Source: a virus. Taken from it: a stretch of 35,514 bases of DNA. Position 1 is the stretch's first letter. Every line of letters starts with the position of its first letter. Under the pieces are notes generated by a model. It worked only from the letters and a program-made list of their open reading frames with translations. It made no database searches and was not told the origin of the DNA. The translations under genes were made by a program, and so were the position numbers. The DNA is taken from IMG/VR virus record IMGVR_UViG_3300021365_002693, positions 1 to 35,514 of that record. One strand, written 5' to 3'. Below, piece after piece: positions 13,407 through 32,294 of this stretch.

Positions 13407-13653
13407 AAGTCTCTTTTAGGATCTCTTTTTTTTGTTGTTCTAAGACCTCTTTATTTTTTTCAATATACTCTTTTGTGATTTGACCAATTTTGTTTTTTTT
13501 ATCTTTTGTCATACTTGTTGTAAAGCGGTTCGTGATATTTTTTGTCATGATTGTTTCACACTTATCGCAATAAGGCTCAATGACTTCTTCCATTAAATGA
13601 AAAACAATCTTAGTTTCACTACAATTTTCACAGCCATACTTATACCTTGGCAT
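13399..13653 (-). CDS. FmdB-like zinc-ribbon protein
   Basis: This 84-residue protein opens with MPRYKYGCENCSET and has CENC (Cys8, Cys11) and CDKC (Cys29, Cys32), a four-cysteine zinc ribbon of the FmdB/Zinc_ribbon_8 kind. The rest is a lysine-rich helix (KKNKIGQITKEYIEKNKEVL) that could bind nucleic acid or a protein partner. It starts with a TAATG overlap on the previous stop. FmdB-type proteins are described as putative regulators, but evidence is thin. Being two genes ahead of gp55, a role in late transcription is a fair guess and no more. Confidence 0.75.
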   Translation of the reverse strand: MPRYKYGCENCSETKIVFHLMEEVIEPYCDKCETIMTKNITNRFTTSMTKDKKNKIGQITKEYIEKNKEVLEQQKKEILKETYE

Positions 13654-13871
13654 TATTTTACCATATTTTCTAAATCTTCTTCAGTTATTTCTTCATTATT
13701 AGAAATTCTTACAGTGGGCGGGTTTTGCACTACAAGTCCGTCGGCGCCGTCAGCTAGCTCAAAACCTTTCAGAATCGGAACAATATCCAATTCGTTTAAT
13801 AATGATTCCTGGAGCGCCATCATTACAGCGCCCAAGGCTTGGTTTGATAATTTATATGTTTTTAAACTCAT
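13653..13871 (-). CDS. Small conserved phage protein of unknown function
   Basis: It encodes 72 or 73 residues: LSNQALGAVMMALQESLLNE, then DIVPILKGFELADGADGLVV and QNPPTVRI, ending in an acidic helix. I remember a similar small protein in marine T4-like phages, with the same 'ALQ.SL....DIVP.L' and 'VQNPP' blocks, but have no function for it. Two ATG codons stand in a row; the second (13871) sits six bases from GGAG and is preferred over 13874. The start lies inside the end of the epimerase gene, which ties the sugar island to the gp55 block. Its stop overlaps the zinc-ribbon start (TAATG). Confidence 0.7.
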   Translation of the reverse strand: MSLKTYKLSNQALGAVMMALQESLLNELDIVPILKGFELADGADGLVVQNPPTVRISNNEEITEEDLENMVK

Positions 13872-14862
13872 CATTTTCTCCTTTGATTAAGATGTTATAA
13901 ATTCTTTTTGATGCATTTCCATCACCATATGGACTACATTCATTGATAATATATCCGTTTTCAATATCATCAAATAGTCCGAAAATTTCAGCGGGTGTTT
14001 TACACAAATAACTATGCTTTTGTAAACTCTCGGTTCTTTCTGTAAACTTACGACAGACAATAACTTTTTTGTTTAGAAAGGAAGCTTCTTCTTGTATACC
14101 ACCGCTATCTGAAATAATAAACCTACACTCTGAAATCTTCCTGATCATCTCATCATATTCCAGCGGTGCTATTACATTTAAACTTGTTAATAAATGTTTA
14201 TATTTTTGAACATTTGGGTTAGGGTGCAGTGGAATCGTGAATCTTAAATGCGGATTCATAGTTGCTAATTTATTAATATTGTTGAACCATTGATCTAATA
14301 TCTCATGATTCTCTCTTCTGTGCATTGTTACTAGTATCTCATTGTTATAGGACGATTCATATCCTTTAAGATTATCCAATACTGTGTTCCCAACAACATA
14401 TTTCTGACCAGGATTCTTTTCGTCTATTAAATTCTGTTTGTTATTTGCCGTTGCACATAGATGTATTTCTGTTATTCTTGAGATCATTTGTCTATAAGCT
14501 TCTTCGGGATAAGGATTCTCAAGATCGTAAGTTCTGAGGCCGGCCTCAAGATGAATAACTTTTACTTTGTGATTAAAAGCAGTGAGTGCTACCGCATAGG
14601 TAGATGCTGTATCTCCTTGCACTAGCACATATTCGATCCCTTCAAATATTTTTGAACTAGAGTTCAACACTGCAGATATTATTTCGTTAAGCCTGTTATC
14701 ACACTTCTTGACATCTAGAGTATAGTCATAGTCATAGTTTGCTAACTGAGTATGCTGGCCTGTAAATAATACTTTAAAGGGGGTTCTGTTTTCTTTTAAA
14801 ATATCAATGATTGGTTTTATTTTAATCCATTCTGGCCTTGTGCCGTAAGATATCAGTATCAT
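13852..14862 (-). CDS. wecB: UDP-N-acetylglucosamine 2-epimerase
   Basis: A GT-B-fold epimerase that converts UDP-GlcNAc to UDP-ManNAc. Family motifs are all visible: GTRPEWIKIKP at residues 7-17, FTGQHTQL, VLVQGDTAST, the HLEAGLRT block with PYPEEAYR, MHRREN, and SDSGGIQEEASFLNKKVIVC followed by RKFTERTE near the end. The 336 residues are somewhat shorter than the usual 370-380, with the loss spread over loops rather than one domain. Start ATGA overlaps the stop of the dehydrogenase, which would be the next enzyme of the same pathway (ManNAc to ManNAcA). This pairing suggests production of an N-acetylmannosamine-type nucleotide sugar. It is the last sugar gene before the gp55 block. Confidence 0.93.
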   Translation of the reverse strand: MILISYGTRPEWIKIKPIIDILKENRTPFKVLFTGQHTQLANYDYDYTLDVKKCDNRLNEIISAVLNSSSKIFEGIEYVLVQGDTASTYAVALTAFNHKVKVIHLEAGLRTYDLENPYPEEAYRQMISRITEIHLCATANNKQNLIDEKNPGQKYVVGNTVLDNLKGYESSYNNEILVTMHRRENHEILDQWFNNINKLATMNPHLRFTIPLHPNPNVQKYKHLLTSLNVIAPLEYDEMIRKISECRFIISDSGGIQEEASFLNKKVIVCRKFTERTESLQKHSYLCKTPAEIFGLFDDIENGYIINECSPYGDGNASKRIYNILIKGENDEFKNI

Positions 14863-15707
14863 TCTTCAGCCTTTGATACAGCACCTTCTATTTCAGCCCA
14901 GTCTTTATGTGTTCTGACTGATTGGTTCCTTTGCCAGGCGGATTTAAGCACGTATGGTTCGACGCCCTGCTCATTAAAAAATTCGATGAAGGCATTAAGG
15001 TCTTTAGGAAAACATTTACCCCCAAAGCCTAAATCACCGTCGTGACCAGGTACCTCTATATGCGAATTACCAATACGGCCGTCGGTTATGAATCCATCCA
15101 TAATGCTATCCCAATTGGTATCTAACTTTTGTGACATTAAGTACATTTCATTCATAAATGAAATTTTTGTAGCAAAGAAACAATTGCACATATATTTAAT
15201 CATTTCCGCGGAGGTTGGGTCAGTCTCAATAATTTTTGTATATGGAAATCTGTCTCGGTATAACTCAGTAACCTTTTGGGTATATTCAGGAGGACCACCC
15301 AAGATAATCCTAGAGGTGTTGATAAAGTCTAAGTTTGCTGATCTTTCAGTGAGAAACTCAGGGTTGAAGACTATTTTTAAACTTGGATATTTTTCTTGAA
15401 ACATTTTAGTGGTGCCAGGAATAACAGTAGATTTAATAATAAAAATAGTATCCGGATTCTTGCTGACTCTTACTATATCATCGAATACAGAGTGCATAAT
15501 CGACAAATCAATTTTGCCACCGTCTACAAATTCCATAGGAGTTGGCACCCCTACGAATACATAATCAGAATTATTTAATGTTTCTTCAATTGTATGGAGA
15601 GTTTTTCTCTTATCTTTATCATAAATCCTAACATTTGCGTGCAACCCAAAGCCTGCAGCAATAGCCGAACCTACAAATCCATTACCAATAATTCCAATAT
15701 TTTTCAT
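14859..15707 (-). CDS. Nucleotide-sugar (UDP-Glc/GDP-Man type) 6-dehydrogenase, short form
   Basis: The start is placed at 15707 (MKNIGIIGNGFVGSA), with GGAG eight bases upstream; an ATG at 15731 lies inside the preceding gene. Of 282 residues, the first part is a Rossmann NAD domain with GNGFVG. It is followed by KSTVIPGTT, FNPEFLTERSANLDF (the NPEFLxEG/R motif) and the catalytic-cysteine block GFGGKCFPKDL (Cys232). These are the marks of UDP-glucose/GDP-mannose dehydrogenases. Most family members have about 390-440 residues because of a C-terminal nucleotide-sugar binding domain; here the protein stops right after the central helical domain. It may act as a short form or be inactive. Substrate probably UDP-ManNAc, judging from the neighbouring epimerase. 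Confidence 0.85.
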   Translation of the reverse strand: MKNIGIIGNGFVGSAIAAGFGLHANVRIYDKDKRKTLHTIEETLNNSDYVFVGVPTPMEFVDGGKIDLSIMHSVFDDIVRVSKNPDTIFIIKSTVIPGTTKMFQEKYPSLKIVFNPEFLTERSANLDFINTSRIILGGPPEYTQKVTELYRDRFPYTKIIETDPTSAEMIKYMCNCFFATKISFMNEMYLMSQKLDTNWDSIMDGFITDGRIGNSHIEVPGHDGDLGFGGKCFPKDLNAFIEFFNEQGVEPYVLKSAWQRNQSVRTHKDWAEIEGAVSKAEE

Positions 15708-15711
15708 TTTT

Positions 15712-16506
15712 TTATCTCCACAATTCTTCATTTAAAAATTTACAAACATTTTTGTCCCACAAATCATTTTTATAAAAATGCCACTTATACAAACAATGAT
15801 TATTTAAACAATAATGTTCAGGGTATACCATTGGGTGGCCGCTTTTGGAATCCAATAAGAACTCATTTGAGAACTCTCTGTTTGCATTAGAATCAATCCA
15901 GCCATTCATCATTATTTTACAGTATTCGCTGTCTTTTTTTAAGTAATCTATAACATTATTTCTTAATTCGCACACAGTATCAATGTTTTTGGAATTACTA
16001 TAAAACCAATGATCTGACAAACCAGCATTCATTTGATTCCAATATGCGCTGTATACACAATCAATGTCATTATCAATATCAAAATTTAGGTAGCTAGTTT
16101 TGTTGTTTCCGTAGTTGTGGTATCCTACATCGAATCGAGAAGTAACGACACAATCATAAACAAAACCATTTTCTTTTTCAAATTGTTTCTTCATTTCATT
16201 GCTTGCATTTCTTGTATGTAAAAAGCTCAAAGTTTTGAAGATATCACCTCTGCTGCCGGCAAAACGGGACATATCTAATTGTGATATTTCGTCATCAAAC
16301 TGGATTTGTTCTTCAAATAAATAAGATTTCGGACTGAACAACTCAACAATTTCATCTTCAAGTGATGTGTCCCAGCAATGTATAAATACATCGGGCTCAT
16401 GTACCATTACTTGTTCAAACAAGTGTTTAAAATTTTGCTCATAGGCACCACCGGCGTATATTGTGCTACCTTTTGGGTATCCAAAAAGACATAATGCTGT
16501 TTTCAA
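15712..16506 (-). CDS. Putative glycosyltransferase of capsule/LPS type
   Basis: The N-terminus reads KLKTALCLFGYPKGSTIYAG, followed by EQVMVHEPDVFIHCWDTSLE and later YDCVVTSRFDVGYHNYG. The 'DVFIHCWD' and 'VVTSRFDVG' blocks occur together in a poorly described group of surface-polysaccharide glycosyltransferase-like proteins; I recognise the pattern but not a named family. I prefer a TTG start at 16506, right after the FkbM stop and nine bases from GAGG. An in-frame ATG at 16554 would need a 47-base overlap and adds an unnatural basic peptide. The acceptor and donor are unknown. About 264 residues with no membrane segment, so a cytoplasmic enzyme. Confidence 0.68.
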   Translation of the reverse strand: MKTALCLFGYPKGSTIYAGGAYEQNFKHLFEQVMVHEPDVFIHCWDTSLEDEIVELFSPKSYLFEEQIQFDDEISQLDMSRFAGSRGDIFKTLSFLHTRNASNEMKKQFEKENGFVYDCVVTSRFDVGYHNYGNNKTSYLNFDIDNDIDCVYSAYWNQMNAGLSDHWFYSNSKNIDTVCELRNNVIDYLKKDSEYCKIMMNGWIDSNANREFSNEFLLDSKSGHPMVYPEHYCLNNHCLYKWHFYKNDLWDKNVCKFLNEELWR

Positions 16507-16507
16507 T

Positions 16508-17140
16508 TTACAATGCCTCTTTTCTGACAAAAGTGATAATTTGATGCCCGCCACCTTTTTCGTGGTATATGTCGTGTGTAATTAATATTTTGTTTTTCAA
16601 CTTTGGCAACTCATCTGTGAGACCTTCCCAACTGTGTAGCTCCATACAAATAATTTTTATATTGCTCAGATCTGCGTCCCCTAAAGCTAAATATTCGCAC
16701 CCTTCGCAATCCATTTTAAGTAAGTCAATTTCTTCAATCTGTAAGAATTCAAATATATCATTAAATTTTATTGTGTAAACATTTTGACTCAGACCGTTGT
16801 GGGTGCTCCCTCCAATTATCGAGTTCGAGCCGGCATCACCAGAATCAGCTTTTTTTAAACTAACAATATCCCCTGTTTTGTCTGAAACTGCTAAATTAAA
16901 GACGGCGCAATTTTCCCAGTTTTCTTCATAAATTCTTTTATTAATCAGTGATACGTTTTCATATGACGCTTCAAATGCAAAACATTCAGCAAATTTATCT
17001 TTATGTAAAGCTAAAAAGTCGCCGCGGCAGCTGCCAATATCTACTAATATTGCATTATCTTCTGGATTATCAGAAATTGAGAACTTATAAGTATCTACTT
17101 TGGGGTATGTTGAATTTTCTAGGTAAAATCTATTTTTCAT
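16508..17140 (-). CDS. FkbM-family SAM-dependent methyltransferase
   Basis: This 210-residue protein carries the SAM-binding motif I as ILVDIGSCRGDFLALHKDKF, then an acidic strand end (CFAFEAS), and the FkbM-typical block EIDLLKMDCEGCEYLALG. FkbM enzymes methylate hydroxyl groups, often on sugars. In the sugar island it probably caps or decorates a glycan by O-methylation. It starts 11 bases after the carbamoyltransferase stop. The motif CEGCE (usually xEGxE) is intact. Substrate cannot be read from the sequence. Confidence 0.88.
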   Translation of the reverse strand: MKNRFYLENSTYPKVDTYKFSISDNPEDNAILVDIGSCRGDFLALHKDKFAECFAFEASYENVSLINKRIYEENWENCAVFNLAVSDKTGDIVSLKKADSGDAGSNSIIGGSTHNGLSQNVYTIKFNDIFEFLQIEEIDLLKMDCEGCEYLALGDADLSNIKIICMELHSWEGLTDELPKLKNKILITHDIYHEKGGGHQIITFVRKEAL

Positions 17141-17151
17141 TGTGTTTATTA

Positions 17152-18372
17152 TTATGCCTTTTTCACCAACAAACCGTAATCATAGTAATATAAATAATCA
17201 ATGTTTGTGCCAAGAAAACAGTTCATTGCATGTGTCGGATTTTCTACTATTGGTTCGCGATCATTGAAGCTAGTATTTAATACAATTGGTACACCATATA
17301 GTTCATTCCATCTGCTGATAAATCCGTGATACCAGGGATTATCTTCAGCCGTTACCGTCTGTAGTCTCCCTGATGCGTCGGCGTGCAGAACTGCGGGTAC
17401 TTTATCTTTCATATCTTCTTTGAAGTTTAATACAAACCCCATATATGGCGCAGGCACATCTTTTTCAAACCATTCACTAACTTTTTCTCTTAATATAGAG
17501 GGGGCAAAGGGTCTAAACCAAGCACGATGTTTGACTCTCTCATTTAGAATATCTTTCATATCCTGGTGTGTAGGGTCAGCTAAGATCGATCTATTGCCTA
17601 AAGCTCGGCGCCCAGACTCTGAGCCTCCTCCGAATACAGCAATAATCTTTTTATCTTTAAGTTTCTGTAGGACATCATCGTCCGTGACTTTAGTAACTGT
17701 GATCTTCTCATTGTTTTCTTCAATTGCTAATTCAACATCTTCTATTGGATACTTTTTGCCTAAATACGGAGTAAAGTTCTTATTGGTAAATTGTCGGGGC
17801 TGGTCCTCTATACAGTGCCAGATATATTGTGCACAACCAATTGCTAGGCCGGCGTCATAGGGCACTGGGCAGACATAAATATTGTTGAATTGCTTGTCAT
17901 ACCAATCGAACATTCGGCCTGTCATAACACTATTAAGTGCAACTCCTCCTGCTAGACAAAGATTATTTGTGCCAATCTTGTCTGCATATGGTTTGATGAG
18001 TTCCTTCACATATGCCTCTGTAGCTGTCTGTAGGGCTGCTGCTATGTTTAATTTTTCATCAAAGTCTAAAGGGGCCCACTCAGAAAATTTAGAGTAGTCA
18101 GAGGCTCTGAGAGCTTTAGTCATAACCTCTAAATATTTATCGGGCTCTTTAGCATACGCTGACATTGCCATAACAGTTCCACATTGATTACCGATGGGTG
18201 GACCTGATGAATATCCATATGTATGCTTTGTGATATTACTCCAAAAGCCTCCGATATTAACCTTAAAGGGGAACCTTTTGAGAAGTTTAATATTATTACC
18301 TTGGCCCTCATAAATTGTAAAGCAAGTTGTAGTATAATCTTCGTTTTCAAGTTCTTCACCACCGCCGTCCAT
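17152..18372 (-). CDS. Carbamoyltransferase (NodU/CmcH/TobZ type), C-terminal part of a frameshifted gene
   Basis: This part begins MDGGGEELENEDYTTTC, which in intact relatives lies inside the protein, directly after the IVT/ITMD strand. It carries NLCLAGGVALNSVMTGRMFD, PVPYDAGLAIG, and the YrdC-like C-terminal block FGGGSESGRRALGNRSILAD and HRAWFRPFAPSIL. These enzymes transfer a carbamoyl group from carbamoyl phosphate, via carbamoyl-AMP, to a sugar hydroxyl. Its N-terminal half is encoded in another frame (18129-18725), so as sequenced neither part alone should be active. The true gene would run 17152-18725. A one-base loss, a sequencing error or frameshifting are all possible. Its stop is followed closely by the FkbM gene. 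Confidence 0.9.
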   Translation of the reverse strand: MDGGGEELENEDYTTTCFTIYEGQGNNIKLLKRFPFKVNIGGFWSNITKHTYGYSSGPPIGNQCGTVMAMSAYAKEPDKYLEVMTKALRASDYSKFSEWAPLDFDEKLNIAAALQTATEAYVKELIKPYADKIGTNNLCLAGGVALNSVMTGRMFDWYDKQFNNIYVCPVPYDAGLAIGCAQYIWHCIEDQPRQFTNKNFTPYLGKKYPIEDVELAIEENNEKITVTKVTDDDVLQKLKDKKIIAVFGGGSESGRRALGNRSILADPTHQDMKDILNERVKHRAWFRPFAPSILREKVSEWFEKDVPAPYMGFVLNFKEDMKDKVPAVLHADASGRLQTVTAEDNPWYHGFISRWNELYGVPIVLNTSFNDREPIVENPTHAMNCFLGTNIDYLYYYDYGLLVKKA

Positions 18373-18725
18373 AGTAACAATAAAGCTTTATCAAAATTTG
18401 AAGAAAAGAAAGCATTCGCAGCATGTGCTTTATGGTGAGAAATTTCAATATATTTGCCGCCGTGAGAATCAATATGTTCCCTCATCTTCTGGAAAGATTC
18501 TGGGTATTGATTTGCGAGGCCTCCGCGCCACCTCATAACAAAGTGTGTAAAATAATCAACTTTGCCAATATCTGGATTTTGTTCAAAGAAAAACTTTAGA
18601 ATATCACCTTGCTGTTCTTTGACTCTCGAAAAACGCTCATACTCTTCGTGAATGTTGGTAATCCCATCTTCCATAATACAATATGCAGTGTCGTGCGCAC
18701 CACAAGCTAAACCTACAATCTTCAT
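18129..18725 (-). CDS. Carbamoyltransferase, N-terminal part of the frameshifted gene
   Basis: It starts MKIVGLACGAHDTAYCIMED with AGGAAG before the ATG, and runs in frame through the metal-binding motif ISHHKAHAANAFFSSNFDKA (His97, His98, His102). At 18382-18388 (AAAGCTTTA on the + strand) the reading shifts. The frame continues LLLWTAVVKN, which is unlike the family, whereas a -1 shift gives F-I-V-T-M-D-G-G-G, exactly what is expected. The final 80 or so residues to the stop at 18129 are therefore out-of-frame junk. No canonical X-XXY-YYZ slippery heptamer is seen in the zero frame, so a lost T in a T-run is the simplest cause. See the C-terminal part for function. Confidence 0.85.
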   Translation of the reverse strand: MKIVGLACGAHDTAYCIMEDGITNIHEEYERFSRVKEQQGDILKFFFEQNPDIGKVDYFTHFVMRWRGGLANQYPESFQKMREHIDSHGGKYIEISHHKAHAANAFFSSNFDKALLLLWTAVVKNLKTKIILQLALQFMRAKVIILNFSKGSPLRLISEAFGVISQSIHMDIHQVHPSVINVELLWQCQRMLKSPINI

Positions 18726-18735
18726 ATTATTCTTC

Positions 18736-19422
18736 CTATTCTTTTATAAACATGTTGGCGCCATCGTTGAAAAAATCAACTGAGGTGCGTACTGAAAAAT
18801 TATGAATATCGTTTCCGATTCTCACCATTTTCTTAAGCGGGCCCTCTGGAACTGTAATAATGTCTGTACCACATTCATCCGCATCAATAATATCGCGTGT
18901 TCGCTGACAACCAGCCCACAATGTCTCTACGTTTGGGTTATCAGAATATGTCTCGTTTGCGTATCTCATTATATCAATTGCGTTGACTCCTGTATCGTTG
19001 ATTCTACCGCAAAAAACAGATACAATAGATGTATAATCAAGTTCTGCCCGAGCAATTTCATCAATTTGCTCTTTTGTGTAGACACAGGTTACATTAATGT
19101 TGAGCTTTTCATCCGATAGTCTCTTAATCAGAGGCACAGCGGACTCACCAGTTGGATATACAACAGGAATTTTCACGTATACGTTTTCTCCCCAAGAGGT
19201 AATTTCTCTTGCTTGTCTCTCAACACCCTCTGGTGAAGGATCAAATACCTGAAAGGAGATTGGACGACCACCCATTAGTGGAATTGTGCTCATTGCAAAA
19301 CTCTTGTAGTCTCTGATCCCAGCTTGTTTCAAAAAGGATATATTTGTAGTTACACCCACAACATTAGCGTAATTACAATATTCGGCTACGCTTGAGCCAT
19401 CATAGAATACTTTAATATTCAT
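18736..19422 (-). CDS. talC: Transaldolase/fructose-6-phosphate aldolase-like enzyme
   Basis: A 228-residue single TIM barrel of the TalC/FSA class. It has VVGVTTNISFLKQAGI at 21-36 (usual TTNPSL, here TTNISF), then GENVYVKIPVVYPTGESAVP with the Schiff-base lysine expected at Lys84, LNINVTCVYTKEQI, and IVSVFCGRINDTG. Such enzymes move a dihydroxyacetone unit between sugar phosphates. TalC-like proteins are well known in marine T4-like phages, usually next to photosynthesis or pentose-phosphate genes. Here the gene is inside the sugar island, two bases after the tri-domain gene and just before the carbamoyltransferase. A role in making an unusual (for example heptose or ketose) glycan precursor is inferred. 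Confidence 0.85.
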   Translation of the reverse strand: MNIKVFYDGSSVAEYCNYANVVGVTTNISFLKQAGIRDYKSFAMSTIPLMGGRPISFQVFDPSPEGVERQAREITSWGENVYVKIPVVYPTGESAVPLIKRLSDEKLNINVTCVYTKEQIDEIARAELDYTSIVSVFCGRINDTGVNAIDIMRYANETYSDNPNVETLWAGCQRTRDIIDADECGTDIITVPEGPLKKMVRIGNDIHNFSVRTSVDFFNDGANMFIKE

Positions 19423-19423
19423 T

Positions 19424-21514
19424 TTATTTTCCTTGTATTTTTAGTAGTTTATTCAGCCAAACTGTGGCCATCAGTAATGCAAAGACACCGTGGTCTTTGT
19501 CGATTTGCATCCGAAAGGGCACAAATCTAATAAAATATGTTGACATATAGAAATAAATTTTCTTTCGTATTATATCTTCCGATTGCATTAAAATTGGTTG
19601 CCAATACTGTATCAAGTTAGAGGGCATCACTGCTTCGCTAATATCAAAAAACGAAGCATTGGCATCAAAACTTTTTTCTTTAATATTAAAGTTACTTACC
19701 AATTGATTGCTATCCATATTTTTCCACAAATTATACCTTGCATATATTGATTGTGAAAGTTTACCTAAATCTAATTCTTTTGCGTCAAACAATCTTGAAC
19801 CGTCCATATCGATAAGTTTAGCAGATAAATCATCTGGATTGTACATAATATTTTCGTATGTTAAATCACCATGTACCACACTAATGCTATTTGGATATAA
19901 TTCACTCATTGGAAGCATTTTAAGTAATTGTCGAAGACCAACATATTTTTGTTTATTAATAAAAAATTCTTTACTCTCTATTATAACATCGAATTCTTGA
20001 CCTTGCAACTTAAAATTATCAAATTTAGCATAAATTTTTTCATTTAAAAATTGTTCCATCCATTCAGGGCCATTTATTTTCTTTGAAAACGAATAAACAT
20101 TGTCATTTAATGTCTTCAAGACATCAGATAATACTCTTACTTTGGTGTTGTAACAATCGGCTTCTGACAGCATTTTATATTTTGGCAGATATTCCATATC
20201 ATAGTAATAATCAAGATTGCTCTCTCGCTCTTCATATGTAACAGGGCATATACCGTTAACTAAAAAATTAAAACGTTCAAGATCTCTTTTCTGTCTTTTT
20301 AGTATGTCGATATGTTTTTGGCCAGCGTCTTTGAGCACTTGTTTTCTTACAAATTTATTACCATCTTTTTCAATCAAATAAGTTTTAGCAAAGGAGTTTG
20401 CAGACAAATCTTTAATTACTTTAATCTTATTATCAGATACTATTTTTTCAATATCAAAACCATCTAGGCCTCTATTTCTTACGACTTCGTATGAATTTGC
20501 TTGGATTGTAAAGGGTTTTGACGGTTTATGATCGTTGATTAGCACACGAGGGCCAGACGGTAAACTCATTATTAGTTCATCATAATAGATATTTTTAGCT
20601 TTTAATAAGCTCTGAACTTCGTTCCTGTATTTTTCGTTCCTTGCAGTCGTAAGAATTATCTTATGATTGTTGGCATTTAATTCTTTTAATGTCTTGTATC
20701 CCTGTAGGCATATGTTGGTGTCAATATTGCTATTTGAGTGATCATTATGTTTTAAGAGAACACCGTCAATGTCACAAAAAATAGAGCACTCATTTCTTCT
20801 TTTTTCAACACAATCAGATAGCATTGTTGGATCACCAAAAAAGTATGCGTTTGGTGCGTCAGATAAAGTTATTTTCGCGCCTTTTCTAAATTGTTCAGAT
20901 ATAATCTCATAAAAATTATGGTATTCATTATTTATATCAGTAAAAATGTGAGCGCTATCGAAATATATACATCCAATAATTCCTTTTACTGTGTACTCAT
21001 TAAAGTCCACGTCTTCTTTGTTTACAAACTTTTCAATTTTCTTATTTTTTAAAAGTATCTTAGACCAATTATGTTGGATTTCTTCAGTTATGTTCCAAGT
21101 CGGAATTATAATTTGTGAAGCGTTTTTATTTAATATTTGTTCAAATAGCTCATCGACATTGATAGAATGATCACAATCGCACACTATAAACGGAGCAGAT
21201 AGATTATGATTATTTTTTATAAATCCATCAGTAAATGTTTGAAGGGGACCTTCAGTTTCTTTTTCTAAGATTGATACTTTTACAGTTGTTTTTGGAAATA
21301 AGGTTTGTAATCTTTCAGTAACATTATGATCTTGCTCTTGTTGTTTCGTGATTATAATTCTTACTGCTTCAATCATACTTTCCCATTTTCTGAATGGTTC
21401 ATATGCTTTTTCTATAAAAGTGAGATCACCTATCCGCAGAAAAGGTTTAAAAGTATTGCCAAACCTTTCGGCTCGGCCTCCACAGGGAAATACAACAGTT
21501 ATCTTAGGGTTCAT
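19424..21514 (-). CDS. Tri-domain nucleotidyltransferase-HAD-small-molecule kinase
   Basis: A 696-residue fusion. Residues 1-235 are a RmlA-like nucleotidyltransferase (VVFPCGGRAERFGNTFKPFL; DxD-like VCDCDH at 111-116). Residues about 243-365 are a HAD module (IFCDIDGVLL, DxD at 248-250; ILTTARN; LINDHKP). Residues about 366-690 resemble a choline/aminoglycoside kinase: FVRKQVL (Lys391), SVVHGDLTYENIMYN (HGD 548-550, Asn555) and LIDMDGSRLFD (Asp569). The parts suggest phosphorylation of a small alcohol or sugar, then nucleotidyl transfer, with a phosphatase step. LicA/LicC (CDP-choline) and AmgK/MurU (UDP-MurNAc) use kinase plus nucleotidyltransferase in that way. Substrate unknown. Start ATGA overlaps the preceding stop. 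Many Asn/Lys/Ile codons, as in its neighbours. Confidence 0.85.
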   Translation of the reverse strand: MNPKITVVFPCGGRAERFGNTFKPFLRIGDLTFIEKAYEPFRKWESMIEAVRIIITKQQEQDHNVTERLQTLFPKTTVKVSILEKETEGPLQTFTDGFIKNNHNLSAPFIVCDCDHSINVDELFEQILNKNASQIIIPTWNITEEIQHNWSKILLKNKKIEKFVNKEDVDFNEYTVKGIIGCIYFDSAHIFTDINNEYHNFYEIISEQFRKGAKITLSDAPNAYFFGDPTMLSDCVEKRRNECSIFCDIDGVLLKHNDHSNSNIDTNICLQGYKTLKELNANNHKIILTTARNEKYRNEVQSLLKAKNIYYDELIMSLPSGPRVLINDHKPSKPFTIQANSYEVVRNRGLDGFDIEKIVSDNKIKVIKDLSANSFAKTYLIEKDGNKFVRKQVLKDAGQKHIDILKRQKRDLERFNFLVNGICPVTYEERESNLDYYYDMEYLPKYKMLSEADCYNTKVRVLSDVLKTLNDNVYSFSKKINGPEWMEQFLNEKIYAKFDNFKLQGQEFDVIIESKEFFINKQKYVGLRQLLKMLPMSELYPNSISVVHGDLTYENIMYNPDDLSAKLIDMDGSRLFDAKELDLGKLSQSIYARYNLWKNMDSNQLVSNFNIKEKSFDANASFFDISEAVMPSNLIQYWQPILMQSEDIIRKKIYFYMSTYFIRFVPFRMQIDKDHGVFALLMATVWLNKLLKIQGK

Positions 21515-22230
21515 TTTTTACTCTTTTCAAGAAAATACCGAAGATCTTCGGGTGTACCAATTCCCCACATCGAGTGAACATAGAAAGGTATGAGTGCTTT
21601 CCCATCTTGAATTAATTCATTATATACTGGTGCTATATAGAATTCGTTATTTACTCGAATATCTTTCTCTATCATTTGCTTGGCGTATTTCACGAAATCG
21701 CTGCCATGGCGGTACCAATAGATGCCGCATGTAGCAATATTTGATATAGGTTTCTTTTCAGCAACCTCAACTGCATATCCCCTAGAATTAGTTTTTACAA
21801 ACGACCACTTTGGATGTACTGCATTAAATGTATATACAATAGCGTCGGCAGAAGTAAGATTCTTCAGCATTAAAAAGTTTTGTGGTGAGTACTCGATGTA
21901 TTGATCAGAATTTGCAATTAGCAAATCTTCATCATTATCAATATATTCTTCCGCTAGCAAAGCAGTACAAGCGGCGCCTTCAGTCAAACCATCAACAACT
22001 ACGTACTCAAATTTTCCATTTGTGATTCTATCGAGTGTATTGATGAGTCCTGAATATTTTTCAATATGTTCCTTTCTGACTAAAAATATGTACTCGCAAT
22101 CAAAATCCAAATTTTCAACAACTGTTTGAATCATTGGCTTTCCATTTACATCAATCAATGGTTTTGGAAAGGTATACCCCTCTTTTGTAAATCTACTGCC
22201 GGCGCCTGCCATTGGAATTAAAACTTTCAC
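21511..22230 (-). CDS. Sugar-phosphate nucleotidyltransferase
   Basis: At 239 residues, it opens with the nucleotide-binding motif VLIPMAGAGSRFTKEGYTFP and KPLIDVNGKPMI, and has the metal-binding ANSDQYIEY strand (about residues 106-114). That is the NTP_transferase/RmlA fold, which makes NDP-sugars from NTP and sugar-1-phosphate. It uses a GTG start that overlaps the HAD stop as GTGA. It lies directly between a separate HAD phosphatase and the tri-domain enzyme, so the island holds two nucleotidyltransferases and two HAD modules side by side. The length (239) fits short forms such as HddC or MurU. The base and sugar cannot be chosen from the sequence. Confidence 0.88.
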   Translation of the reverse strand: MKVLIPMAGAGSRFTKEGYTFPKPLIDVNGKPMIQTVVENLDFDCEYIFLVRKEHIEKYSGLINTLDRITNGKFEYVVVDGLTEGAACTALLAEEYIDNDEDLLIANSDQYIEYSPQNFLMLKNLTSADAIVYTFNAVHPKWSFVKTNSRGYAVEVAEKKPISNIATCGIYWYRHGSDFVKYAKQMIEKDIRVNNEFYIAPVYNELIQDGKALIPFYVHSMWGIGTPEDLRYFLEKSKK

Positions 22231-22841
22231 TGTATAATCTCCTGAAATAAGTCACAGTTTACCTCTTGGGGGTTCTTTACTTTAAACACTTTACAGCCAG
22301 AAGCTTCTGCAGCTGCAATCCCTTTCGGTGAATCTTCAACAATTATAACAGATTTTTTTTCAACATTAAAATGCTTAATCGTCTTTAAATACCCTTCGGG
22401 ATTAGGTTTTGGGTTTTCTACATCTTGATTAGTAATCACCAACTCAAACATATCTAAGATACCTGTCTTCCTTAGCATAAGTGTTGTTGTTTCTCGAATA
22501 CTATTTGTAAAGCAAGCTACGTGGATCTTTTTATTCTTAAGTTGTTCAATGAGTTCAATTTTTTCATCTCTAACCCTTGCATTTTTATTTATAATCTCAA
22601 GCGTTTTAGATTGTTTTAAATCATAAATCTCTTTATGATGATGTTCTTCTATAATTCCCATCTCAGTCAGTTTGTCTAATTTAACTTGAGTTGGAATACC
22701 ATTAAATGTTTTATAGTGATCATCAAGTGAAATTTCATAATCACTCACTTCTTTGAGTGCTTCGTTTAATGCTAAGCGATGCCACTCACAAGCATCAACG
22801 AGTACACCATCTAGATCAAATATAACTAATTTAACCTCCAT
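22227..22841 (-). CDS. HAD-superfamily phosphatase (subfamily IA type)
   Basis: A 204-residue enzyme with all four HAD motifs: FDLDGVLVDACEWH (nucleophile Asp9, Asp11), a CFTNS motif II, a lysine in NPKPNPEGY, and IVEDSPKGIAAAEASG. The cap is a helical insertion after motif I (C1 cap), as in beta-phosphoglucomutase and phosphoglycolate phosphatase relatives. Likely action: dephosphorylating or isomerising a sugar phosphate for the nucleotidyltransferase that overlaps it. Whether it is a mutase or a phosphatase cannot be told. The gene overlaps the preceding glycosyltransferase by 11 bases. Confidence 0.9.
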   Translation of the reverse strand: MEVKLVIFDLDGVLVDACEWHRLALNEALKEVSDYEISLDDHYKTFNGIPTQVKLDKLTEMGIIEEHHHKEIYDLKQSKTLEIINKNARVRDEKIELIEQLKNKKIHVACFTNSIRETTTLMLRKTGILDMFELVITNQDVENPKPNPEGYLKTIKHFNVEKKSVIIVEDSPKGIAAAEASGCKVFKVKNPQEVNCDLFQEIIQ

Positions 22842-23553
22842 ATAAGCCCCTTATTGTATGATCAACTTGATATTCTTCTAAAGCCTCTTTCAATATTTTT
22901 GGATATTGTGATAGGTTCCACTGGCCCTTACAAACGGCAGTTGCAACATAAGGAAAAATTGATGAGTCGTAATGTAGACTGCCGCGTTGTGGTTCGTTAT
23001 TATAATAGTAACAGCTTTTTAATCTTGCATATCGCATAGCTGTCGAACCAAAAGCCTCGACATCGCGATAAGTGTTTGGTTTGTAAAGCTCAAAAAGTTT
23101 TAATAAATCGGCTCGTTTCCATATTGCACTTTGTTGCGAGAAAGAATATGTTGAATTTTTAGGTATCTCATATAAATTTTCAGCTATTTGTGGGCCGCCA
23201 AGTTCTCCACTTTTTATAAGCCTAACGCAACTATAATCGTTATTTTTTAGAAATTCAAAGACTCTGTCTAATTCATGCTCTTGGCAATCATCGTAAAATA
23301 TATGATCTTCTTGAAGGTACAAAACATATTCTTCATCTATCTGATTTAAACAATCCATAAATCTTTTATAAAACGGCTCCTTGTCATTATTGACAAGCTG
23401 AATATGTTTGTCTTCTATTTTGTCCGACTGTTCATCTAAAAAAATATAACTTTTCTGATAGTTGACGTGTTTATCTAAGCGTCCAAAGTACAGTGGCCAG
23501 ATATCTGAGTACTCGTTGTGTGTCCAAGTAATCAGAGCGATTTGATTATTCAT
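22831..23553 (-). CDS. Glycosyltransferase, GT-A-like
   Basis: At 240 residues, its N-terminus ALITWTHNEYSDIWPLYFGR is followed by DEEYVLYLQEDHIFYDD; the EDH part is probably the DxD-like metal and donor site. Later parts include SCVRLIKSGELGGPQIAENL and a short C-terminal acceptor-side region with YNNEPQRGSLHYDSS. The pattern is of small GT-A enzymes used for surface polysaccharides, not of a well-defined family that I can name. Its start overlaps the GDPD-like gene by 8 bases, with AGAGG upstream. Function as a sugar transferase is inferred from fold-like motifs and from the neighbours. Confidence 0.7.
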   Translation of the reverse strand: MNNQIALITWTHNEYSDIWPLYFGRLDKHVNYQKSYIFLDEQSDKIEDKHIQLVNNDKEPFYKRFMDCLNQIDEEYVLYLQEDHIFYDDCQEHELDRVFEFLKNNDYSCVRLIKSGELGGPQIAENLYEIPKNSTYSFSQQSAIWKRADLLKLFELYKPNTYRDVEAFGSTAMRYARLKSCYYYNNEPQRGSLHYDSSIFPYVATAVCKGQWNLSQYPKILKEALEEYQVDHTIRGLYGG

Positions 23554-24001
23554 TATTTTTTACCTCTACAAAATATTTTTGAATGTTGTCTGAGCATATG
23601 CCAATCGCAGTTATTATTTGCTCGGGTGTATAATTTGAGTATTCGGGCATTACACATATAGATTTCTTGGTTAACTTTATCCCAGGGTAAGTCCACATAT
23701 ATTTTTTTGATGTTAGGGTAATGTCATCATTTTCGTGCCAAAAATAGTGAGCGTCCAGCTCTTCTAGTTTTACAATTGCTTCTAAATTCTTACCGTGGCA
23801 CCATAACTTTTTTTCCAAAAAAAAATCAGATTCTACCTGATACTGTGGCTCATCATGGCCTAAAAACATTTTATCTCGTATACACCAAACATCAACTTCA
23901 ACATCATATCCCTTCTGTAATGCTTCATTGATATATTCAGGCTTGTTTTCCATTGCAGGTATTGAGCCATTGACATTGCCTCTGTGTGCTATAAAATACA
24001 T
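23546..24001 (-). CDS. Short glycerophosphodiester-phosphodiesterase-like protein
   Basis: The ATG at 24001 overlaps the previous stop (TGATG). The first residues are MYFIAHRGN (HRG at 6-8), followed by GYDVEVDVWCIRDK (ExD at 35/37) and MFLGHDEPQYQV (HD at 49-50). These are the metal and catalytic residues of the GDPD/PI-PLC-like barrel. However, the protein has only about 151 residues, where full GDPD barrels have about 240. Next come LWCHGKNLEAI, AHYFWHENDDITLTSKKYMW and TYPGIKL. A recognisable short GDPD-like form exists in phages and in surface-glycan loci. It may act on a phosphodiester-linked substituent or bind a phosphate sugar; activity is unproven. Confidence 0.78.
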   Translation of the reverse strand: MYFIAHRGNVNGSIPAMENKPEYINEALQKGYDVEVDVWCIRDKMFLGHDEPQYQVESDFFLEKKLWCHGKNLEAIVKLEELDAHYFWHENDDITLTSKKYMWTYPGIKLTKKSICVMPEYSNYTPEQIITAIGICSDNIQKYFVEVKNNE

Positions 24002-24738
24002 CAGTCTTTCCAAGTACAGAACTTAGTAACACTTTCATTTCCGCGTAAGTAACCACGATTAAGACCTGCATCACCCAATAATAATGGATTTAATGTTGAG
24101 CCAATATCAATGTAGGTGTTATCTTGGTTGTGTTCAAATAATTGATGTGTCAAGATATTACCAAACGGGCCCGCACAAAATAAAAACAGATTATTTTTTA
24201 AATTGTTATCTGTTATGTATTGTTTGACTTCATCAATAAGTTGGTGATTATCAACCCAGGCATTTTTTCCTATTACAAAATGTTTTTTAATTTCAAAAGG
24301 TAAATTCTCTAGATTAGAATCAGAATTAGAAATTAAAATAACTTCTCTGCTGCTATATTCTGGCACCATATTATTAAGATAATACTTGTAATTTGCATTA
24401 ACGAATATGTTAGCCCAAGTTAAGTGATTTAATTCTTGGCCTGATTGATTTTTCATCCAATCGTGAACTGTATCACCACCGATACAACAAGGACAAGAAA
24501 CGCCAACAAAATATAGTTCGTGCTTAAACTTAAATGAATCAACCATCTCTTGTCGGTTCGAGGCGTGTTCAGAGGGTATAAACCAAAACTCTCCGTTGTT
24601 AATTGGTTTGTTCGCTAATATGTGAAGTTCCCCATCAGCGTATTTAGAAAAAGCAAAATTCTTTTTACTTTTTAACAACTCTACGATACTTCTCAGATCT
24701 TCTCTAAAATCTTTTTTATCAGCTTCTATACCAAACAT
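24001..24738 (-). CDS. Putative GT-D-type glycosyltransferase
   Basis: A 245-residue protein with FAFSKYADGELHIL near residue 35, close to the (F/R)xGDGE motif of the GT-D fold (DUF1792), which adds glucose in some streptococcal glycans. Other stretches are YFVGVSCPCCIGGDTVHDWM, ILISNSDSNLENLPF and LFLFCAGPFGNILTHQLF; the last looks like the typical 'sGP....l...L' end of this family, followed by YIDIGSTLNPLL. The start overlaps the preceding stop (TAATG) with AAGGAA before it. The family call is by motif only. It sits with three other transferases. Confidence 0.65.
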   Translation of the reverse strand: MFGIEADKKDFREDLRSIVELLKSKKNFAFSKYADGELHILANKPINNGEFWFIPSEHASNRQEMVDSFKFKHELYFVGVSCPCCIGGDTVHDWMKNQSGQELNHLTWANIFVNANYKYYLNNMVPEYSSREVILISNSDSNLENLPFEIKKHFVIGKNAWVDNHQLIDEVKQYITDNNLKNNLFLFCAGPFGNILTHQLFEHNQDNTYIDIGSTLNPLLLGDAGLNRGYLRGNESVTKFCTWKD

Positions 24739-26309
24739 TATTTATTCCTTTTGTAAACAGGCTTCCAGCCATTAATAATTGCATTTTTGACGCAAGCATC
24801 TCGCTGCGCATAAAAAACTTCGTGATTTCTGCTATTTGATGTTGCTTTTGAGTCCACTCCTAATTCATATCCCTGAAGCGAACTGTGTAATTCCTTATTG
24901 GAACTTGGGTGTGGTGGGCAGTACGTTTTTATATTCCCATACTTCTGAGCAGTATAGGAAAACTGAATATCTTCTCCGTTATTCCAAGTAAATGGTTTTT
25001 CCATCCATAGATATTTTAACCACTCCTTTTCAAAAAACCAAGCGTGTCCAACTAAATCAACTTCAGTAGTTTTTTCGTTTAAAGCAGACCAGCCAGTCCT
25101 TGAATGGCCATAATATCTTTCATCTTTCAGCAATACGCCGGCGCCTCCCAAAATGCCTGGGGTAACTTTCATTGTGTTGACGCAGTTTTCGAACCAATTA
25201 GTACCGGGTATGGTATCATCGTCAAAAAGGGCAATATATTTAGTATCAGCTAACATCGCGCCGGCAAACCTTCCGTAGAACTTCCAATTGTAATCATTTT
25301 TAATCACTCTATCAACATTAAATTGAGTAAAGTCTATATTTTCATTATCACTATGATGGTTCACCCAAATCCATATTTGCTTTGGTTGTACAGTCTGTTT
25401 CCGAATGGAATCAATTTGGTGCTGCAAATATTCTGGACGTCTGTAACAATTAAGGATCACTGTAATATCTTTATCCTCGGATAGTATTTCAACAAACATT
25501 TGCAGCGCTGAATTAACTTTATTGCGAATCGCTGAAATCAACTCATCGCCGGACAATTTGAACCACTCCTCTGATGCTGCTCCGAGCATATGACTCTTTG
25601 TCATCACCTTGCAGTTTAACATCTTAGCTTCAACAGTTATTCTTGATAATGTCTCTAACACTTGCGGTAAGAAAACAAAATATTTATATTTTGATAATTC
25701 TACAAGTAATTCTTTTTCTGGTAACGATCGGATTAGATCGTATTCCAGATTTTTTGATTCACATAGGTTAATGGCGGGTTGCGTACCTTTAATTGGATTA
25801 TCACCAGCCAAAATGCAGTATTTGTCTATTTTATCTGCTTTATTTATTGATTCTATAAAGTCTAACTTCTTGGTCGACCAAAGTGAGCATCCAATATTTA
25901 TAACATTATCAATATTTAAATTTTTTTCAATTATCTCTTTACAAATACTGCTAAGAACCACTACTTTGTGAGCATTAGCATAAAATTCTTTATTTATTAT
26001 TTCTTTTTCTGGGGCCCTAAAGTCAGGATATATTGATGGATTCCTGCTTCTAATATATTTATGGTCGTGTTCATAGATAATGTATTTTTTAAGCATTATC
26101 ATTTGTTTGGTTCTTTCTGACAATTGTGTGAAATTGCTTATCAGAAACAGTTCATTGTTGAGTATTATATCTTCAGTAATATTGACAGAAGCGACTTTGA
26201 TTACATCAAAGCCGCTCTTTGTCAAATGTTCAATTAGAACCGAGTCGTTTAATTCAGCGCCGCCTATTAAGTTTTCTTTAAATAGGTCTGCTATGAAGAC
26301 CACTTTCAT
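24738..26309 (-). CDS. Bifunctional glycosyltransferase: GT-B (GT4-like) plus GT2 domain
   Basis: A 523-residue fusion. Residues 1-275 look like a shortened GT-B enzyme: VVFIADLFKENLIGGAELN, a second half with YCILAGDNPIKGTQPAI, and VLETLSRITVEAKMLN, which contains the EX7E motif. Residues about 285-523 are a GT2 GT-A domain: ITVILNCYRRPEYLQHQIDS, KYIALFDDDTIPGTNWFENC with the DDD metal site, and a WNNGEDIQFSYTAQKYG block late in the domain. The two halves could add successive sugars. Start and stop both overlap neighbours (TAATG). No membrane segment is visible. Confidence 0.85.
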   Translation of the reverse strand: MKVVFIADLFKENLIGGAELNDSVLIEHLTKSGFDVIKVASVNITEDIILNNELFLISNFTQLSERTKQMIMLKKYIIYEHDHKYIRSRNPSIYPDFRAPEKEIINKEFYANAHKVVVLSSICKEIIEKNLNIDNVINIGCSLWSTKKLDFIESINKADKIDKYCILAGDNPIKGTQPAINLCESKNLEYDLIRSLPEKELLVELSKYKYFVFLPQVLETLSRITVEAKMLNCKVMTKSHMLGAASEEWFKLSGDELISAIRNKVNSALQMFVEILSEDKDITVILNCYRRPEYLQHQIDSIRKQTVQPKQIWIWVNHHSDNENIDFTQFNVDRVIKNDYNWKFYGRFAGAMLADTKYIALFDDDTIPGTNWFENCVNTMKVTPGILGGAGVLLKDERYYGHSRTGWSALNEKTTEVDLVGHAWFFEKEWLKYLWMEKPFTWNNGEDIQFSYTAQKYGNIKTYCPPHPSSNKELHSSLQGYELGVDSKATSNSRNHEVFYAQRDACVKNAIINGWKPVYKRNK

Positions 26310-27547
26310 TAGACTAACTCAACTTCAGATAAAGTCTTGTCCCATTCAAGTTGCTCTTCACTAAAGAGACTATCGCAGAAGTTTTTATACATTTTTTCAG
26401 CCGAGAAGTTTTCGTTTAAGTAGTTTGAATACTCTTCGCTTTTTGCAGCATGGCCAGTATTATTAATAACATCATTGTAACATTCTCTTAATTTTTCTTT
26501 GGCCGCGGACTCTCTTGCATACGACCACATTGAATCGGCCATAATAACAGTATCCCATACTGCCTCTTTCGGCACAGGTTGAAGGTCGAATGCTACGTCA
26601 TAGAACATTTCTTTATTATTTTTATCGAATAAGAAATCACATTGACCAGACCACCCAACAGCCACCACTGGGGTACCTGAATACAGTGATTCAAAGAATG
26701 GTAATCCATAACCTTCCCCATGGGAAAGGCACACAAAGGCCTTAATTTTGTCAGCTTTGTATAAAGAGTGCATCTCTTGGTCCGTTAAATCACCGTGTAA
26801 CAAATGCACTGAGCATTTTCTATCAGGAAAGTGATTGAGTAAGTTCTTAAGACTTACAAGTGTTGCATTTCTATCCATTAGCGAGTTTTTAGACATATTT
26901 GTCTTAACAACTAATCCGACTTCTTCATCGTGAAATTCTTCTACAAAGTATTTGATGGTGTTGCCTAAATTCTTTCGTGGGCCCAATTGGGCTACACACA
27001 AGAAATTAAAGTCGTATTTCAATTCCAAACCCATATCGACTGTTTCATAATTTTTAACTGGATAATTGACCACGTTAATTGGTACTGTTGTCTTTAATTC
27101 AACTTTTTCTTTAGTACCTTCTACCTCACCAATATATTGAGTCGCTTCGAACACATCTTTTGCGTGATTAGACACCACCAGTAGTTTGTTCATTTTATTG
27201 CATTGTTGGATCCATTCTGGTGACACCTTGGTGGTTTCAATACCAGCAGTATATCCTATGTTTATCGGAGCCAGCTGTTCAAATTCGTTAGGAATAGTGA
27301 CTTGGATTGACACATCAAATGTTCCACCAGTTCTAGTGTACGCCATTGTTTTTTCAATTGTTTCATCGATCCAATTTTTTTCTTCATCATATTCAGAAAC
27401 CCAGCTAGTTTGGCCCCAATTTATAGGAATTAAATAAATATCATAAAGATCTTGCTTGCTTTGCAAACTCCTTAGTGCGAATCTTGCTTGCTCTCCATAT
27501 CCAGAGCGAGTTAAAAACGGGCCCCTAAGTAGTACTTTCTTTTTCAC
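26309..27547 (-). CDS. Family 4 glycosyltransferase
   Basis: A 412-residue GT-B enzyme. The N-terminal domain starts VLLRGPFLTRSGYGEQARFA, with a glycine-rich loop; the C-terminal domain has LCVAQLGPRKNLGNTIKYFV and FVCLSHGEGYGLPFFESLYS, carrying the EX7E donor-site motif, then GTPVVAVGWSGQCDFLF. The start is GTG at 27547, overlapping the previous stop as GTGA, with TGGAGG upstream. It is one of two neighbouring full-length GT4 enzymes (see 27544-28833) that differ clearly in sequence, so they probably make different linkages. Donor unknown. Confidence 0.92.
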   Translation of the reverse strand: MKKKVLLRGPFLTRSGYGEQARFALRSLQSKQDLYDIYLIPINWGQTSWVSEYDEEKNWIDETIEKTMAYTRTGGTFDVSIQVTIPNEFEQLAPINIGYTAGIETTKVSPEWIQQCNKMNKLLVVSNHAKDVFEATQYIGEVEGTKEKVELKTTVPINVVNYPVKNYETVDMGLELKYDFNFLCVAQLGPRKNLGNTIKYFVEEFHDEEVGLVVKTNMSKNSLMDRNATLVSLKNLLNHFPDRKCSVHLLHGDLTDQEMHSLYKADKIKAFVCLSHGEGYGLPFFESLYSGTPVVAVGWSGQCDFLFDKNNKEMFYDVAFDLQPVPKEAVWDTVIMADSMWSYARESAAKEKLRECYNDVINNTGHAAKSEEYSNYLNENFSAEKMYKNFCDSLFSEEQLEWDKTLSEVELV

Positions 27548-28833
27548 GCAACCTCCAATAAATGCCAGCGTTTATAATTTTTTCTATTTTCCCAAGAACC
27601 TTCGCGTTCTATTATTTCGTCCATTGTATTGACCCACGCTTTTTCATAATTATTAAAATTATAATTTTCCTTTACGTGTTGGCGGCCGGCAGAAGACATA
27701 CTTTTATATGCCTTTGAACTCACTGAAATTGCCTTTTTTAAAGTATTGATAAAGTCTTTTTGATTAATTCTATCTTCATAAATATATGGCACCTGGAGTG
27801 AGCCAATCACCGCCTTTGAGGAAGGTTGGATACCCCAACCAAACCAATCTTTACCGTTAGTTACTTGTTCTTGTAAGCCACCTGTCATATTAACTATAAT
27901 TGGTGTGCCACAAGATAACGACTCCAGCGTAGCTAACCCAAACCCTTCAGCATCTGATATGTTGATTGTAAAATCCGACAAATTATACATCACTGCTAAG
28001 TCTTCCGGTGGCACCTTATTGGTCGACAATAATACTTGGCCTTGGTTTACGCCCAAATGTTCTATAATGTGCGGTAAATCTTGTCCGTGGGGGTCACGGG
28101 CATCTGTATGCATAATCAATGTTGCCTTATCGTGCCCTACTTCATCTAAGAACTCCTTAAACCACCATATGAGTGTTCCTGATTGTTTTCTTCTAGCATT
28201 TCTATTGTTCCAGAAGAAGACCGTTTTCTTATTTTTAGATTTTGTATCATTATTTTCTAACCCAGGAAGCTGACTCAGGATATGTTTAACTTTTTCTTTG
28301 TCTTCTTTGGCAGTAAATTTTTTAAATATTTCACTATTAACAGCATGCGGTAAGTACCTCGAAGGGGTATCTGGTGCCACATCTTGTAGAATCTTGTGAG
28401 TAACCTTAGAAATACATACCACTTCGTCATTTGACTGATAGAAGCTTCTATTATATGAGGGTGACGGAAAATTATCCCACACATGATAATAAATCATTGG
28501 ACAGACGGCTCTAATCTCATTTTCAATTTCCCACAGCCATCCATAAAATCTAGGGTCAGTCATAAACCAAAGAGCATCAGGTCGCTCTTTTTGTAGTATA
28601 GAGCGCACTACCTCTTGACTTCCATAGCCATCTACGGGGTAAATTCTCCAATCATCTCCATACGGATCAACCCTTTGGGGGGTATAGTCATTATGCTTAA
28701 TAGCACCACCTAAACAAACAAATTCATATCTGCCTGTCTTGAGAAGCGCTTCAATCATATATCTTGTTTGGGTACCCACGCCAGAAGGCGAAAGTGGATG
28801 GTCTGAAAGAACCAGTATTTTTTTCTTATTCAT
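27544..28833 (-). CDS. Family 4 glycosyltransferase
   Basis: At 429 residues it has the N-terminal KILVLSDHPLSPSGVGTQTR. The linker IMHTDARDPHGQDLPH is followed by the donor domain: NLSDFTINISDAEGFGLATL and ESLSCGTPIIVNMTGG, holding the EX7E motif. Full-length GT-B fold, no membrane segment. GAGGAATAA precedes the ATG, eight bases after the nuclease stop. It is the first glycosyltransferase of the island in transcription order. Target and donor are unknown. The W-rich stretch FYGWLWEIENE is unusual but not diagnostic. Confidence 0.92.
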   Translation of the reverse strand: MNKKKILVLSDHPLSPSGVGTQTRYMIEALLKTGRYEFVCLGGAIKHNDYTPQRVDPYGDDWRIYPVDGYGSQEVVRSILQKERPDALWFMTDPRFYGWLWEIENEIRAVCPMIYYHVWDNFPSPSYNRSFYQSNDEVVCISKVTHKILQDVAPDTPSRYLPHAVNSEIFKKFTAKEDKEKVKHILSQLPGLENNDTKSKNKKTVFFWNNRNARRKQSGTLIWWFKEFLDEVGHDKATLIMHTDARDPHGQDLPHIIEHLGVNQGQVLLSTNKVPPEDLAVMYNLSDFTINISDAEGFGLATLESLSCGTPIIVNMTGGLQEQVTNGKDWFGWGIQPSSKAVIGSLQVPYIYEDRINQKDFINTLKKAISVSSKAYKSMSSAGRQHVKENYNFNNYEKAWVNTMDEIIEREGSWENRKNYKRWHLLEVA

Positions 28834-28840
28834 TTATTCC

Positions 28841-29611: not shown

Positions 29612-29629
29612 TTTTCCTCCAGATTATAT

Positions 29630-30596: not shown

Positions 30597-30638
30597 AATA
30601 ATTCTCCCTGATATTATAGTCTAAGTTTTCTTGTTAGT

Positions 30639-32252: not shown

Positions 32253-32294
32253 TTCTCCTGCGTCCATATAGTACGTAGGTCTTATATGTTAAAA

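Follow-up and report, generated by a model that had tools for sequence, protein, structure and literature searches.

The window analysed here, the 35,514 bases of virus record IMGVR_UViG_3300021365_002693, contains between positions 13852 and 28833 a sugar island of sixteen consecutive minus-strand genes (15 kb, gaps of at most 11 nt), which runs on into a gp55-like sigma gene. The best explanation for this island is that it represents one allele of a glycan locus that is hypervariable and holds a fixed place in the Far-T4 phages, distant relatives of T4 to which the window phage appears by sequence to belong. The slot is a feature of the whole lineage, and its cargo turns over independently of the flanks.

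The slot and its changing cargo

Loci of relatives were collected with the sugar-1-phosphate nucleotidyltransferase of the island or gp55 as bait. In dozens of contigs, the slot followed one order: PhoH, a metallopeptidase, a nuclease, two GT4 glycosyltransferases (GT4a and GT4b), sugar genes, three small genes and gp55. In the window, the frame genes from the nuclease to gp55 lie on the minus strand. The upstream edge is formed by a PD-(D/E)XK exonuclease (28841-29611; PF12705, 3.7e-13; PHROG exonuclease), which adjoins GT4a in relatives and stands two genes upstream of it in phage immuto. GT4a (27544-28833) and GT4b (26309-27547) both match PF00534, and GT4b accompanies GT4a in 26/26 complete slots. 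On the other side, three small conserved genes (13653-13874, 13399-13653 and 13068-13406), in the same order in relatives' loci, are followed by the gp55-like late sigma factor (12359-13084; phrog_234). This family matched phrog_234 in 31 of its 36 members, with a best value of 2e-7 and a value of 0.0087 for the window copy. The metallopeptidase-like gene between PhoH and the nuclease (29648-30343; weak M90 and ATLF matches) is also conserved in relatives.

The two sides of the frame stood 7-23 kb apart in the 26 complete slots, with swappable sugar genes in between, and 402 of the 403 cargo open reading frames (ORFs) lay on one strand. Sugar functions made up the bulk of the annotated cargo, which in other slots included SDR epimerases, aminotransferases, cupins, NeuB, sulfotransferases, C-methyltransferases and cytidylyltransferases. 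The comparison of cargo with backbone rests on these complete slots, which replaced the partial 9-kb slots used for many loci. Identity of gp55 followed that of GT4a/GT4b (rho 0.62; 0/500 label permutations as high); for cargo against the frame, rho was -0.15 (gp55) and -0.14 (other side). Loci found with the nucleotidyltransferase share that gene by construction, and its neighbours, a HAD gene and a PLC-like gene, were favoured too; the set picked by gp55 alone is therefore the cleaner measure. These 11 slots held 211 cargo ORFs in 142 families, of which 103 occurred in a single slot. No cargo family was present in all of them, the median shared cargo was 4%, and the trend between cargo and frame was weakly positive (rho 0.27).

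Locus L026 carries 11 of the 13 window cargo genes at an identity of at least 40%, in a partly rearranged order. This corresponds to 82% cargo sharing though gp55 identity is 52%; with phages at 74-83% gp55 identity, the window shares 0-19% of its cargo. In L026, the sharing of cargo other than the nucleotidyltransferase, HAD and PLC genes is not by construction. The first-pass annotation had named as fatal to its proposal that the gene set should never co-occur in related phages, and L026 bears the recurrence out. It had also named separate, independently lost genes as contrary evidence, and cargo genes are indeed lost and replaced from one relative to another.

These data bear on whether the cargo is stuffer DNA, non-functional or loosely selected genes piling up at a recombination-prone site. 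This was raised for the lipopolysaccharide (LPS) gene clusters of cyanophages, where a genome comparison left open the choice between working clusters and stuffer DNA (PMC3037559), and one broken gene and the fast turnover of cargo would fit it. However, the genes are open, tightly packed and on one strand, sugar functions predominate, the trio of nucleotidyltransferase, HAD and PLC genes recurs in 12-13 of 14 slots (partly by construction), and L026 retains its share of the island at a considerable distance in gp55. Stuffer DNA is thus considered very improbable.

As the window is without gene 23, its placement leans on relatives. Far-T4 phages are recognized by a divergent Gp23, nearest to RM378 among reference phages and longer than other T4-like Gp23. 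A profile search detected T4-type Gp23 in 12 of 22 contigs (the window and its relatives). The best isolates for the relatives' Gp23 were immuto, Mel-JY01 and RM378 at 43-48%, other isolates being lower, and in Far-T4-type contigs the Gp23 frames are open, 601-638 aa long, and contain an insert. The group was therefore assigned to the Far-T4 phages described by Roux et al., which keep phoH close to structural genes (PMC4360716); in the window, PhoH (30639-31979) likewise accompanies baseplate genes (1011-3189 and 10892-12052). The hosts of the nearest isolates are Flavobacterium (immuto, on Flavobacterium sp. LMO8), Microcystis (Mel-JY01) and Rhodothermus (RM378), and a megablast of 12359-31979 against phages gave no match. 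The outer insertions of Far-T4 capsid proteins are variable (PMC4360716). Gp23 of these phages (as at L194:505-2304) has a long insert between model positions 62 and 124, a possible exposed acceptor region.

The GT4a profile matched 18 of the 21 other contigs as well as immuto, Mel-JY01 and RM378. Among the misses, G016 has an ordinary Gp23, and G006 and G015 are possibly fragments with the locus cut off. GT4b is present in immuto and Mel-JY01, and its match in RM378 is weak and partial (4.7e-8). Behind the nuclease and the homologues of GT4a and GT4b (gp181 and gp180), immuto has a sugar block of 12 genes without a polytopic protein; Mel-JY01 has a shorter block behind the same three genes, and RM378 has no annotated sugar block there. 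This distribution indicates that the GT4a/GT4b pair is ancestral to the Far-T4 slot.

Operon layout and target of the glycan

The first-pass annotation described about 15 consecutive sugar genes joined by stop/start overlaps into the gp55 block; the analysis confirmed this, locating all sixteen genes where they had been placed. Gaps from 28833 to 13852 range from -23 to +11 nt, the two halves of a frameshifted carbamoyltransferase overlap by 244 nt, and gaps stay at or below 19 nt all along 29611 to 10892. It had seen no internal promoter; 96 promoter-like sites were counted against 82.5 ± 9.4 in shuffles, not clearly over chance. One correction concerns a sigma70-like candidate, TTGACG-17-TATAAT (29630-29658, minus strand), which shortly precedes the nuclease gene and, at 11/12, shared the top score of the scan. 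A box of the same score (11/12) stands at this place in L140; the other relatives examined have at best a weak one. The late-promoter motif TATAAATA occurred at chance frequency. A chain of making, linking and decorating steps in one operon is supported.

Profiles PF02397, PF01943 and PF04932 had no match in the contigs searched, where control profiles matched, and none of the functions of a Wzx/Wzy-type locus (initiating transferase, flippase, polymerase) was found in them. By a simple hydropathy scan, none of the 403 cargo ORFs had more than one predicted membrane segment; in bacterial loci with the same nucleotidyltransferase, 23 of 323 ORFs had four or more.

A search for a thymidylate-synthase-fold enzyme (PF00303) was negative for the window and 21 contigs, several of which are fragments, and likewise for RM378 and Mel-JY01; immuto encodes one. 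This bears on DNA hypermodification, in which the transferases would glycosylate modified bases of the phage DNA, a known activity of viral glycosyltransferases such as those of T4 according to work cited in PMC12619734. The PD-(D/E)XK nuclease adjoining the island would suit such a role, and base-modifying enzymes of other kinds are possible. Nevertheless, the T4-type hydroxymethylase route was not found in the other sequences just named, several of them fragments, and a cargo making complex sugars, methyl and sulfate groups exceeds the needs of DNA glycosylation, which makes this alternative improbable. In a Tet/JBP search no positive control matched, and its result was not used.

The best reading that we can infer, with confidence close to even, is the soluble, swappable glycosylation of a virion component. 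GT4a and GT4b would place the first sugars, in the cytoplasm, on a phage-encoded acceptor, for which a capsid, decoration or tail-fibre protein is the likeliest candidate. The trio and other cargo would supply the activated sugar, and the remaining transferases, the FkbM methyltransferase and, where intact, the carbamoyltransferase would build and cap the outer glycan. The product would be a phage-specific virion glycan, whose type would be set by the cargo and switch as cassettes are exchanged by flank recombination. Somewhat more tentatively, the locus may be serotype-like, the GT4 pair priming a conserved virion protein and cassettes recombining in the flanks, with the result that the coats of close relatives differ.

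Since the block lies in one operon with gp55, its products would be made before or with the late genes, and the early-type box before the nuclease gene (window and L140) is compatible with early expression of viral transferases. In chloroviruses, capsid decoration is attributed to mostly soluble, early transferases acting in the cytoplasm (PMC5408694), and the fibril-glycan clusters of Megavirinae comprise 6-33 genes, several of these clusters lying between conserved genes (PMC10117803). The occurrence of GT4a in phages of unrelated hosts favours a phage-encoded acceptor. The first-pass annotation had left open surface masking, virion glycosylation and alteration of DNA; neither export machinery nor a thymidylate-synthase-fold enzyme was found, and this, together with the ancestral glycosyltransferase pair, tilts the balance towards the virion, short of proof.

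Several points weigh against a virion target. The acceptor, the sugar and the transcript are proposals. Among solved structures, GT4a is closest to chlorovirus B736L (1.8e-14), but the GT4 family is huge, and the biochemistry of B736L is itself uncharacterised (PMC5408694). The nucleotidyltransferase bait inflates cargo sharing among divergent phages, the contigs are metagenomic and may in places be chimeric, the membrane-segment count comes from a simple hydropathy scan, and the carbamoyltransferase of the window is broken. Bacterial surface-glycan loci contain members of the WecB, dehydrogenase and trio families as well. Finally, a target at the host surface is compatible with the lack of export genes, since the phage could borrow a host flippase and ligase.

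Such a change of the host surface is the main rival: sugars would be added to lipid-linked O-chain or capsule precursors, exported by the host, and would block rival phages or re-adsorption to debris. It was proposed for pelagimyophage glycosyltransferases (PMC7029224). Bacterial surface loci typically contain genes for WecB, dehydrogenase, NeuB, DegT, cupin and sulfotransferase proteins, the trio adjoins glycosyltransferase genes in bacteria, and hypervariability would also suit a varied host surface. On the other hand, no flippase, polymerase, ligase, initiating transferase or polytopic protein was found, and Rhodothermus, Flavobacterium and Microcystis, whose phages have GT4a in common, are unlikely to offer one common surface acceptor. 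We therefore regard host-surface remodelling as rather unlikely.

Cargo genes and neighbouring features

All cargo genes of the window are on the minus strand, and the families named by the first-pass annotation (WecB, dehydrogenase, FkbM, carbamoyltransferase, transaldolase, nucleotidyltransferase, HAD, GT2 and GT4) are backed by Pfam, NCBIfam or PHROGs. Next to GT4b, a two-domain protein with a C-terminal GT2 glycosyltransferase (24738-26309; PF00535, 2e-9) is followed by a GT-D-like glycosyltransferase (24001-24738; PF22882, 0.0023 and TIGR03728, 0.0014, both below cut-off). The recurrent trio consists of the PLC/GDPD-like protein (23546-24013; phrog_34507, 1e-24; weak glycerophosphodiesterase match), present in 12/14 complete slots, the HAD phosphatase/mutase-like protein (22227-22841; PF13419, 7.8e-33), present in 13/14, and the sugar-1-phosphate nucleotidyltransferase (21511-22230; PF00483, 2e-10; phrog_3980, 9e-71), with 319 relatives in viral contigs. 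A probable glycosyltransferase (22831-23553; TIGR04440, 3.7e-5, below cut-off) with 23 homologues in slots lies within the trio. The HAD and nucleotidyltransferase genes are apparently fused in Synechococcus phage S-CAM9 and in a contig of a Flavobacteriaceae metagenome-assembled genome, and a 468-aa ORF of L148 overlaps both matches (L195:14341-15726; L172:1100-2476; L148:2396-3802); such fusion ties both enzymes to one pathway.

The following gene encodes a 696-aa protein (19424-21514) with an NTP-transferase-like N-terminal, a HAD-like middle and a kinase-like C-terminal part. The match to PF18143 over 245-320 is below cut-off (9e-5), and the N- and C-terminal parts were assigned by motifs only, which are conserved in 5 homologues. 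A structure model of this protein for fold search was poor (pLDDT 63) and was not used. The transaldolase (18736-19422; TIGR02134, 4.9e-62, below cut-off; PF00923, 1.3e-26) comes after the 696-aa gene in relatives too. The carbamoyltransferase (17152-18725; phrog_1601 on both pieces; PF16861, PF02543) belongs to the family claimed for it but is not an intact gene, as a frameshift near 18380, which may be a sequencing error instead of a mutation, splits it; in L021 it is intact (530 aa).

The FkbM methyltransferase (16508-17140; TIGR01444, 1.9e-19) is followed by a 280-aa protein (15712-16554) without Pfam, NCBIfam or PHROG family, which is predicted from its structure model to have a GT-A glycosyltransferase fold. 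The model (pLDDT 92) matched GT-A enzymes with Z 9.3 and rmsd 3.5-3.7 Å over 176-183 residues; Foldseek values were weak, none being under 0.001. A sequence search of the PDB with the 280-aa and 240-aa proteins returned nothing relevant. The nucleotide-sugar dehydrogenase (14859-15731; PF03721, PF00984; TIGR03026, 189.5 bits, just under cut-off) is a short form without the C-terminal domain. Its family is short throughout, about 282 aa in 25 loci, and keeps the GFGGKCFPKD motif. The last cargo gene encodes a non-hydrolysing UDP-GlcNAc 2-epimerase (WecB, 13852-14862; TIGR00236 above cut-off; PF02350, 1e-65); when used as a tracer, it gave only distant and scattered phage matches.

Outside the island, an HldE-like cytidylyltransferase (33829-34293; PF01467, 2e-11; phrog_7878) has relatives located inside the slots of other phages. 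A 2177-aa protein encoded between the baseplate genes (3251-9784) is conserved in relatives and had no match among phage records. The L157 contig (G005, 187393 bases) has GT4a (4335-5615) on the same strand as gp55 (near 174305), which suggests a near-complete, circularly permuted genome.

Comparison with known systems

The first-pass statement that one or two such genes are usual in T4-like phages no longer holds. Cyanophages P-SSM2, S-SSM7 and S-SM2 contain large LPS gene clusters of unproven function (PMC3037559), pelagimyophages carry many such sugar genes (PMC7029224), and GT4a by itself is widespread among our contigs (18/21). As large clusters in T4-like phages are already published, the new part is a fixed-frame, cassette-swapped, export-free locus with an ancestral glycosyltransferase pair. 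Among the papers searched, there was no account of such a Far-T4 sugar locus and none that named both Far-T4 and glycosyltransferases.

The cyanophage LPS clusters resemble the island as large sugar blocks of T4-superfamily phages near phoH and tRNAs, which in the window lie at 30639-31979 and 32034-33044, respectively, and S-CAM9 has related HAD, nucleotidyltransferase and PLC genes. Unlike in the window, the GT4a profile had no match in P-SSM2 or S-CAM9, and the frame from nuclease, GT4a and GT4b to gp55 was not seen in cyanophage clusters. Phage immuto (NC_055915), whose capsid protein is among the closest isolates, shares the nuclease, GT4a, GT4b and a sugar block, but its cargo is different and its gp55 block lies about 20 kb off instead of being adjacent.

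Megavirinae and chloroviruses (PMC10117803, PMC5408694) also combine virus-encoded sugar synthesis with mostly soluble transferases and variable clusters, several between conserved genes. They are eukaryotic viruses, however, whose glycans, and in chloroviruses the acceptor, are chemically shown, whereas those of the window are proposed from its genes. Moraphages (PMC12619734) are, like the window phage, large aquatic phages, with four core glycosyltransferase groups and hosts predicted to be mostly Bacteroidota; in the tree of that study, they branch separately from both the T4 families and the Lak phages.

In its manner of working, the slot can be compared with bacterial O-antigen and capsule loci, which have fixed flanks, variable cargo and exchange independent of the backbone. 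It differs from them in that no flippase, polymerase or initiating transferase was found and that it sits in a phage genome. To our knowledge, no phage has been shown to vary a complex virion glycan coat in the manner of bacteria. Throughout the lineage studied here, the phages keep a defined slot, in which the enzyme pair is ancestral and the cargo is rapidly exchanged; the arrangement in a cultured relative is similar. Should the product coat virions, these phages would, like bacteria, be able to vary a complex glycan coat, which would affect their adsorption, their recognition and the competition between them.

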